Virus record (IMG/VR): IMGVR_UViG_3300025070_000101
Location: 1 to 37,021 of that record
Length of the DNA: 37,021 nt
Reading direction: 5' to 3' (one strand)
Origin: a virus
Below are positions 12,588 through 14,022 of the stretch, in pieces. Made by a program: the position numbers and the translations under genes. Each line of letters begins with the position of its first letter. Positions within the stretch are counted from its first letter, which is position 1. The notes beneath the pieces were generated by a model that saw only the letters and a list, made by a program, of their open reading frames with translations, had not been told where the DNA came from and made no database searches.

Positions 12588-12782
12588 ATGGAAAATCCTA
12601 CAGAAATAAAACGAAGAGGCTATTTGTCTTTCTTCAAGGATGGAGTTGCAGATGCCTTGTTACATGGAGATGGTATGGATGAAAACAAAAGATCATCTGC
12701 TTATTATAAACAAGGATATGATTTTGGTTTAACCATGTATTCTGAATTAGATGGTAAGGATTGGGAGGCAGATCATGAATAG
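12588..12782 (+). CDS. Hypothetical early protein (64 aa)
   Basis: It starts at the base after the previous stop, with GGAGAG upstream. Charged and aromatic, no recognised domain. It overlaps the methyltransferase start by eight bases, so the two are translationally coupled. Confidence 0.55.
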   Translation: MENPTEIKRRGYLSFFKDGVADALLHGDGMDENKRSSAYYKQGYDFGLTMYSELDGKDWEADHE

Positions 12783-13812
12783 AGATCATATAGACCTTTG
12801 TTCGGGAATCGGGGGCTTTGCACTAGGATTCTCGTGGAGTAGTTTAAACACTACTCCAACCCTTTTCTGTGATACTGAAGAATGGTGTAGAAAAGTAATA
12901 GCCAAGAACTTTCCAAAAGTACCGATAGCCAATGACGTAAAGGAGATAGCCAATGACCCAAGAAAATTTATTCAAGGAAAACCATTCATCCTCACAGGAG
13001 GATACCCCTGTCAACCATTCTCAGTCGCAGGACGTAGGGGAGGCAAAGAAGACCCTCGTCACATCTTTCCGTACATCCATAGGATTGTTGAACAAGTCAG
13101 ACCCTCTTGGTGTGTTTTCGAAAATGTATATGGACACTTCTCAATGGGACTTGACGAGGTTCTCCTTCAAATGGAAACCATTAATTACGCAACAAGGACG
13201 TTTATCGTTCCGTCTAGTTCAGTCGGAGCATTGCACAAAAGGGACAGAATTTGGATCGTCTGTAAAGACATGGGCAACTCCGAATACGATGGATCATCTT
13301 CCACCGAGGTCGGAGGAGGCAACACGGAAACTTCAGAACGGACACCGGAAGGGAAGGAAACGTCCATCGAATCTCAGAGAACAAGTCGATCCGAACACAA
13401 TAAAATTATATCCAACCCCAAGAGCCTCGGACGTAGAGGGGGGAATGGCGAGCAACGTGGAGATCAACAACGGCAGATTCTCAAGGACGAACAAGGACGG
13501 AGTCAGGTGGGGAGTGAAGTTGAGGGATGCCGTGAATCACATGGAAACCTTTCCGACTCCAAGAGCGAGCGAATACAAAGATTGTGGAGCAGTTGGGAGC
13601 AAGAGTCAGATTCACATGGAGAAGAAATCATACCTTTCTGCGAAAGTGAAAGACCCCCAACAACCATCTGGAAAACTGAACCCAACGTGGGTCGAGTGGT
13701 TGATGGGTTACCCAAAAGGGTGGACAGAATTAAAGGACTAGGCAATGCCATAGTTCCTCAGAATGCTATGATGATAGCTAATGCAATTCATAGGAGTATG
13801 ACCGAAGATTAG
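12775..13812 (+). CDS. dcm: DNA cytosine-C5 methyltransferase (345 aa)
   Basis: It transfers a methyl group from S-adenosylmethionine to cytosine C5 in a specific site, most likely to shield phage DNA from host restriction. Motif I is DLCSGIGGFALGF (7-19), motif IV GGYPCQPFS with catalytic C79, motif VI ENV (116-118), motif VIII HKRDRIWIV (154-162), and motifs IX/X end in GLGNAIVPQ (321-329). The ATG at 12775 has GGGAGG upstream. Between residues 167 and 300 the target-recognition region is a low-complexity Ser/Glu/Arg/Gly stretch, exactly where a second frame carries ordered, conserved-looking sequence (see the gene at 12953). No partner endonuclease is nearby, so it looks like an orphan enzyme. 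Confidence 0.9.
   Translation: MNRDHIDLCSGIGGFALGFSWSSLNTTPTLFCDTEEWCRKVIAKNFPKVPIANDVKEIANDPRKFIQGKPFILTGGYPCQPFSVAGRRGGKEDPRHIFPYIHRIVEQVRPSWCVFENVYGHFSMGLDEVLLQMETINYATRTFIVPSSSVGALHKRDRIWIVCKDMGNSEYDGSSSTEVGGGNTETSERTPEGKETSIESQRTSRSEHNKIISNPKSLGRRGGNGEQRGDQQRQILKDEQGRSQVGSEVEGCRESHGNLSDSKSERIQRLWSSWEQESDSHGEEIIPFCESERPPTTIWKTEPNVGRVVDGLPKRVDRIKGLGNAIVPQNAMMIANAIHRSMTED
12953..13741 (+). CDS. Overprinted gene inside the methyltransferase (262 aa)
   Basis: A second frame, shifted +1 from the methyltransferase and wholly inside it. It has its own ribosome binding site, AAGGAG at 12940-12945, seven bases before the ATG. The product carries ordered motifs: WATPNTMDHLPPRSEEA (107-123), YPTPRASD (153-160), FPTPRASEYKD (200-210) and LNPTWVEWLMGYPKGW (242-257). 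I recall such TPxxxD repeats and an LNPxWVEWLMGxPxGW end in phage proteins annotated as hypothetical or methylase-associated, which argues that this is a real protein rather than a shadow. Function unknown; a partner of the methyltransferase is a guess. Confidence 0.7.
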   Translation: MTQENLFKENHSSSQEDTPVNHSQSQDVGEAKKTLVTSFRTSIGLLNKSDPLGVFSKMYMDTSQWDLTRFSFKWKPLITQQGRLSFRLVQSEHCTKGTEFGSSVKTWATPNTMDHLPPRSEEATRKLQNGHRKGRKRPSNLREQVDPNTIKLYPTPRASDVEGGMASNVEINNGRFSRTNKDGVRWGVKLRDAVNHMETFPTPRASEYKDCGAVGSKSQIHMEKKSYLSAKVKDPQQPSGKLNPTWVEWLMGYPKGWTELKD

Positions 13813-14022
13813 TTAGGTGGTCGGCAACACTTTCTCTCATGGTGCGAAGATAGAATATCGTTTTTACCTCAATGCCGTAGATGTCTTTTACCAATTTCCC
13901 ACAAATTTATTAAATTGGTGTAAAGGGTAATGCTTGTTGCTGTAATATGATTGAGCAAAATCTATGGAAATCTATCGCTTTATATAGGAGTTTATGTATA
14001 ATAAAATATAAAAGAGGTGCTT
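13813..14022. other. Gene-free stretch with nested hairpins
   Basis: About 210 bases between the methyltransferase and the next gene hold no convincing frame. They contain an outer helix CGGCAACA (13822-13829) with TGTTGCTG (13935-13942) enclosing a strong hairpin (13885-13897 with 13912-13925), and then a TATAAT at 13997-14002 that could be the -10 of the following gene. Confidence 0.5.
13822..13942 (+). ncRNA. Candidate structured RNA
   Basis: The outer eight-base-pair helix, an inner 13-bp hairpin with one bulge and a 14-base loop, and a small GATA/TATC hairpin near 13849-13859 can fold together as a branched RNA. It is intergenic. There is no match to a known RNA class that I can see; the structure could also be a terminator-like or DNA-level element. 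Confidence 0.3.

Follow-up and report, generated by a model that had tools for sequence, protein, structure and literature searches.

Here we identify a locus in a marine phage genome that very probably encodes a single two-subunit DNA cytosine-C5 methyltransferase, with each subunit in its own reading frame and the two frames overlapping on the same DNA. The window, i.e. the whole 37021-base stretch analysed, is an IMG/VR virus record and carries phage genes for terminase, portal, helicase, primase and DNA polymerase; Rfam and tRNA searches of the window returned no match and no tRNA. The longer frame, alpha, lies on the plus strand at 12775–13812 and would encode the catalytic subunit of 345 aa, comprising motifs I–VIII, an overprinted tether and motif X. 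Its start is best placed at the ATG at 12775, which is preceded in the sequence by a Shine-Dalgarno GGGAGG with a six-base spacer (12763–12777, plus strand), and relatives begin at the same site. The second frame, beta, is a +1 ORF of 262 aa on the same strand that opens with ATG, lies entirely within alpha (12953–13741) and is the candidate recognition subunit. Upstream of it is an AAGGAG Shine-Dalgarno sequence (12940–12945) with a 7-base spacer before the ATG (12940–12955 in total, plus strand), and an SD-like motif is present in 101/111 distinct loci. The initial annotation had described this 262-codon ORF wholly within the methyltransferase, the AAGGAG seven bases before its ATG, the repeats TPNTMDH, TPRASD and TPRASE and the C-terminus of the product. 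All are confirmed in the sequence, with the repeats at beta residues 109, 155 and 202 and the C-terminus LNPTWVEWLMGYPKGW at residues 242–257. Our reading implies one enzyme divided between two frames, with the hand-over at domain boundaries, in hundreds of viral loci and in assemblies assigned to many bacterial phyla. Moreover, many phage genes labelled DNA methylase would then be half enzymes with an unannotated partner.

Alpha matched PF00145 in Pfam (E=1e-32) and falls in phrog_363, named DNA methyltransferase. A profile of alpha matched M.HhaI over residues 3–160 (E=5e-36) and again, below significance, at motif X; M.HhaI was also the best Foldseek match of the alpha model (E=5e-13). The catalytic features of a C5-cytosine methyltransferase are present in alpha, namely motif I, the PCQ of motif IV, the ENV of motif VI and motif VIII. 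The AlphaFold2 model is confident at residues 1–168 and 315–343. The pre-X segment and motif X (EPNVGRVVDGLPKRVDRIKGLGNAIVPQNA, 13669–13788, plus strand) are conserved in the alpha frame of relatives, and helices are modelled there at residues 315–343. Residues 169–305 have a pLDDT of about 30 and are modelled without secondary structure. Ordinary C5 methyltransferases are arranged in the order motifs I–VIII, recognition region, motif IX and motif X (domains described in PMC3404938). Neither a recognition region nor motif IX was found between motifs VIII and X of alpha; to carry both on the same chain is the usual, not the universal, form of this domain. From the layout of the two frames we infer that the recognition region and motif IX missing from alpha are encoded in the +1 frame. 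Beta had initially been interpreted as an extra gene imposed on the target-recognition region of an intact enzyme. The dual coding, the conservation and the separate ribosome-binding site all stand, but the methyltransferase frame holds no folded target-recognition region, as its residues 169–305 are unfolded in the model and fast-changing.

Comparison of 14 close relatives reveals which frame is constrained at each part of the locus. The rates of difference at alpha codon positions 1/2/3 were 0.123/0.054/0.286 before the overlap, 0.109/0.092/0.173 at 12953–13270, 0.210/0.055/0.027 at 13271–13741 and 0.091/0.054/0.353 after the overlap. Given that alpha position 1 is beta position 3, these rates identify the constrained protein as alpha up to ~13190, beta up to ~13735 and then, at motif X, alpha. 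The constrained frame thus changes twice, near 13190 (alpha to beta) and near 13735 (beta to alpha), and the passenger frame is beta over 12953–13190 and alpha over 13190–13735. The overlap consists of an N part (12953–13190, plus strand), where alpha motifs IV–VIII dominate and the beta N-terminus is overprinted, and a C part (13190–13741, plus strand), where the putative recognition region and motif IX of beta dominate and alpha is reduced to an overprinted tether (pLDDT ~30). Outside the overlap, 16/17 alpha fourfold sites were variable. The proportion fell to 9/22 across the N part (P=7e-4) and to 4/34 across the C part (P=1e-8), so that synonymous change in alpha is depressed where the two ORFs overlap. 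Variable columns numbered 95/170 in alpha (13190–13700) versus 26/183 in beta (13190–13741), the two ranges differing slightly at the 3′ end. Conservation of beta in the N part was set aside as evidence, since alpha conservation alone can produce it. The locus offers a clear system for studying protein evolution under two-frame constraint.

Stops are kept out of both frames. When synonymous codons are chosen at random without altering the beta protein, 9.0 alpha-frame stops are expected in the C part and 0 are observed, and 0/20000 synonymous shuffles of this part lacked alpha-frame stops. Summed over 233 families of beta recognition modules, with one representative counted per family, there were 13 alpha-frame stops observed against 329 expected, whereas the third frame of the same 233 families contained 523 against 500 expected. 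This deficit argues that alpha is under selection for translation as far as motif X. Over alpha motifs IV–VIII, 0.44 stops are expected in the beta frame (P(0)=0.56) and an open frame there is unremarkable in this sequence alone. The internal start of beta is itself under selection, as codon choice in alpha is biased to spell the AAGGAG and ATG. Over the Shine-Dalgarno sequence, the alpha Lys codon is AAG 90 times and AAA 2 times (144:254 upstream) and the Glu codon is GAG 73 times and GAA 16 times (89:211 upstream), whilst over the beta ATG the alpha Asn codon is AAT 80 times and AAC 0 times (137:56 upstream); these counts derive from related loci that are not phylogenetically independent. 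Moreover, the SD-like stretch persists in several loci with other alpha sequence at this position (e.g. L060 and L069).

As to the identity of the nested product, beta matched phrog_1008, 'DNA methyltransferase' (E=8e-28). A Pfam search with beta matched no family and its relatives matched nothing consistent, and PDB sequence searches with beta and with its profile gave no match. Modelled alone (AlphaFold2, 55 sequences) beta reached a pLDDT of 52.7, which is not confident; a low value may suit a protein with an obligate partner and proves nothing. Profile-profile comparison of the C half of beta with canonical single-chain C-termini found no link (probability 0.1%). The MGxP and TP residues of the beta frame are invariant or nearly so. 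Towards its C-terminus is a motif-IX-like segment, LNPTWVEWLMGYPKGWTELKD (13676–13738, plus strand). The same segment occurs in the alpha frame of a Rickettsiales-type relative, L206, where phmmer aligned it in register with M.HhaI (LHPRECARVMGYPDSY...FGNSVV, the latter being motif X), albeit weakly at 7 bits. Position, the intermediates described below and this weak M.HhaI alignment suggest that beta is the recognition region, and that it carries motif IX as judged by position and resemblance. We treat both assignments as provisional because the model of beta alone is not confident and no profile links beta to the canonical enzymes.

Past residue 106, beta is composed of units of ~44 aa that open with [WYF]xTPxxxD, many of which end LxxxV. 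This window contains three putative recognition modules, all on the plus strand. Module 1 (WATPNTMDH...LREQV, 13271–13408) belongs to the largest module family, present in 106/249 loci. Module 2 (YPTPRASDVEGG...LRDAV, 13409–13549) belongs to a family found elsewhere at the first, second and fourth place of the array. Module 3 (FPTPRASEYKDCG..., 13550–13675) has a copy in close relatives that is 83% identical to the second module of L064, despite alpha halves that are 34–35% identical. The 249 non-identical loci contain 1–7 modules, mostly 2–4, which form 233 families in 183 arrangements, and families reappear at differing array positions. We found 192 module pairs with at least 80% identity in which the two loci share no more than 45% identity in their alpha halves, and such likeness beside divergent alpha halves points to exchange of modules. 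These comparisons indicate that modules have been swapped between loci, much as in the multispecific Bacillus-phage enzymes. The multispecific C5 methyltransferases of Bacillus phages SPR, phi3T and H2 have several tandem recognition domains between motifs VIII and IX. Tandem exchangeable modules of this kind are found in beta, where each module would correspond to a recognition domain by its position; the Bacillus-phage enzymes, however, are single chains in one frame, whereas the array here is a separate subunit in the other frame. Any exchanged module must be stop-free in the alpha frame, in agreement with the alpha-frame stop deficit. We give roughly even odds to the idea that beta acts as a combinatorial specificity subunit, whose swappable modules would each have their own methylation target and would move from phage to phage as cassettes. 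Such an array would be limited to sequence without stops in either frame, since translation of the catalytic subunit has to continue across the same bases to reach motif X. The modules could also serve as a naturally occurring collection of recognition elements for split methyltransferases.

The initial annotation had suggested that the alternative frame is conserved in other phages. This is borne out, as beta is at +1 in 163/163 loci from public phages and IMG/VR in which alpha and beta could both be detected. Loci in GTDB mostly have the same arrangement, and the few departures among the matches listed are frame-broken or unusual loci; the assemblies are assigned to Bacteroidota, Planctomycetes, Acidobacteria, Proteobacteria, Nitrospirota, Verrucomicrobia and others. 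We also carried out a frame-blind scan, in which a DNA pattern for the beta motif EWLMG(Y/F)P was sought and a complete alpha half was required upstream. This recovered at least 112 loci. In 104 of the 112 matches listed, motif IX is at +1 whilst the alpha ORF itself (+0) encodes motif X, and none of these 112 was recognised as a complete single chain. All of these counts are of related loci, not of independent events. Two observations had been named in advance as speaking against a conserved dual-coding gene, namely homologues with a broken alternative frame and normal synonymous variation in the methyltransferase frame; both were checked and neither held.

Not all relatives are split at the same point. 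In the Rickettsiales-type loci L206, L212 and L347–L349, LNPDWVEWLMGYPxxW is found in the alpha frame directly before motif X and the recognition region alone is at +1, with the codon-position rates flipping across that region. In Streptomyces phage Lilbooboo (gp32/gp33) and Mycobacterium phage Alma (gp83/gp82), motifs I–VIII and then recognition region, IX and X are found on consecutive genes with a short +1 overlap (L215 1192–2248 and L216 1162–2182, respectively). The second genes, Lilbooboo gp33 and Alma gp82, contain the recognition region, a WLMG/WMMG segment and motif X, and were matched by the beta profile with E=2.5e-7 and 1e-10, respectively, within a set of 13 sequences. Thus, three layouts exist: near-separate pairs, nested pairs in which alpha carries X but not IX, and nested pairs in which it carries both. 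The recognition part is at +1 in each of the three. For this reason, a single frame-split ancestor, the two ORFs of which later grew into each other, would be the simplest account. The nested +1 pair has already been annotated in Paenibacillus phage Diva (gp49/gp50, 'g49 internal gene') and Escherichia phage K1H (ORF29/ORF28), where methyltransferase is the only function assigned. Phages C72C1, R9.1, BKO1-TP3, ABMM1, phiXaf18, Haboob, Harrison, Royals2015 and KLEP18-1 also have the beta frame, in their case without annotation.

Two-polypeptide C5 methyltransferases are already known. Lee, Kam and Shaw reportedly described M.EcoHK31I as such an enzyme in 1995. The gene for the large subunit of M.EcoHK31I also encodes the small subunit, in a different frame, and the small chain here is likewise in an alternative frame within the large gene. 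In M.EcoHK31I (YGGCCR) the large subunit carries motifs I–VIII and X and is assigned the recognition domain, whilst the small subunit carries motif IX (PMC3404938). Here too the large chain has I–VIII and X and the small chain has IX, the last as judged by position and a weak alignment; unlike in M.EcoHK31I, recognition would reside on the small chain, in several modules. Likened by subunit and motif layout, M.EcoHK31I is the closest known enzyme. M.AquI is a further two-subunit C5 methyltransferase that, as here, has its catalytic half and its recognition/IX half in separate chains (PMC3404938). However, the break in M.AquI falls within the variable region and leaves IX and X together on the small subunit, whereas at this locus alpha carries X and the overlap between the two genes is almost complete. 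The split of the Alma gp83/gp82 and Lilbooboo gp32/gp33 pairs resembles that of M.AquI. Both chains described here belong to existing families, phrog_363 for alpha and phrog_1008 for beta, which are catalogued apart and without the frame relationship. A search of openly accessible literature found no paper describing the arrangement in phages. What was known already includes the nested gene as marked in Diva gp50 and K1H ORF28; apparently new are how widely the arrangement occurs, the transfer of constraint from one frame to the other at domain boundaries, with split points that differ between loci, and the array of shuffled modules in a second frame.

We propose that a single transcript serves for the translation of both chains, with beta initiated internally at its own ribosome-binding site. 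Alpha would provide AdoMet binding and catalysis (I–VIII) followed by a disordered tether and the motif X helix, and beta would provide the target-recognition region, with three ~44-aa modules here, and motif IX. The two chains would assemble into one enzyme that methylates phage DNA, both being needed for activity and the modules having a role in target choice. Phage methyltransferases in general have a known role in protection against restriction, and the most likely use of the methylation would be protection from host restriction.

A quite different possibility is that programmed frameshifting yields one long chain, with a +1 shift near motif VIII, a shift back near motif X and an internal start that is merely incidental. 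The conserved parts do follow, across the two frames, the linear order of a single chain (I–VIII, recognition, IX, X). Nevertheless, two opposite shifts would be required, and the near-absence of alpha-frame stops over the modules would be needless if ribosomes leave that frame. Moreover, the ribosome-binding site and start of beta are conserved and codon-selected, and the Lilbooboo and Alma intermediates make separate proteins. We therefore consider frameshifting improbable. We are similarly doubtful that beta is an unrelated phage protein, such as a regulator or an anti-restriction factor, whose gene overlies that of a complete methyltransferase. Its lack of a Pfam match and of any match to canonical methyltransferase C-termini would fit such a protein; however, no part of alpha between motifs VIII and X is folded or conserved, and the beta motif adjoins motif X in one chain in L206/L212, Alma gp82 and Lilbooboo gp33.

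It is barely conceivable that beta is a chance open frame whose similarity among phages is a shadow of alpha conservation. Over motifs IV–VIII such a frame has about an even chance of being open and would look similar because alpha is conserved, and single-chain phage enzymes such as that of Streptococcus phage MM1 also show an open +1 frame there. However, at 13271–13741 alpha changes fast and beta is conserved, which is the opposite of a shadow and already contradicts this account, as does the codon bias at the internal start.

Lastly, we note several features of this and related loci. MM1 has a canonical single-chain C5 methyltransferase with an annotated +1 ORF14 over motifs IV–VIII (L217 1343–1768), and ORF14 may be a mere shadow of the conserved frame. 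In L188, L210, L243, L289 and L309, alpha I–VIII, IX and X stand in other frame relations, which may reflect sequencing errors, decay or further split variants. The pair is present on Paenibacillus bovis plasmid NZ_CP021170 (L213 1239–2525), for which an incomplete gene table lists neither of the long ORFs. In the phage studied here, ~200 bases immediately after the methyltransferase (13813–14016) are without a listed ORF in otherwise densely packed surroundings and have no Rfam match. Finally, a block of ~86 bases at 13676–13762 shares 84–85% DNA identity with Lacticaseibacillus phages R9.1 and R23.9, much more than is seen elsewhere in the gene. Conservation within this block extends to both frames, corresponding to the putative motif IX of beta and to EPxVGRVAxGxP and motif X of alpha.
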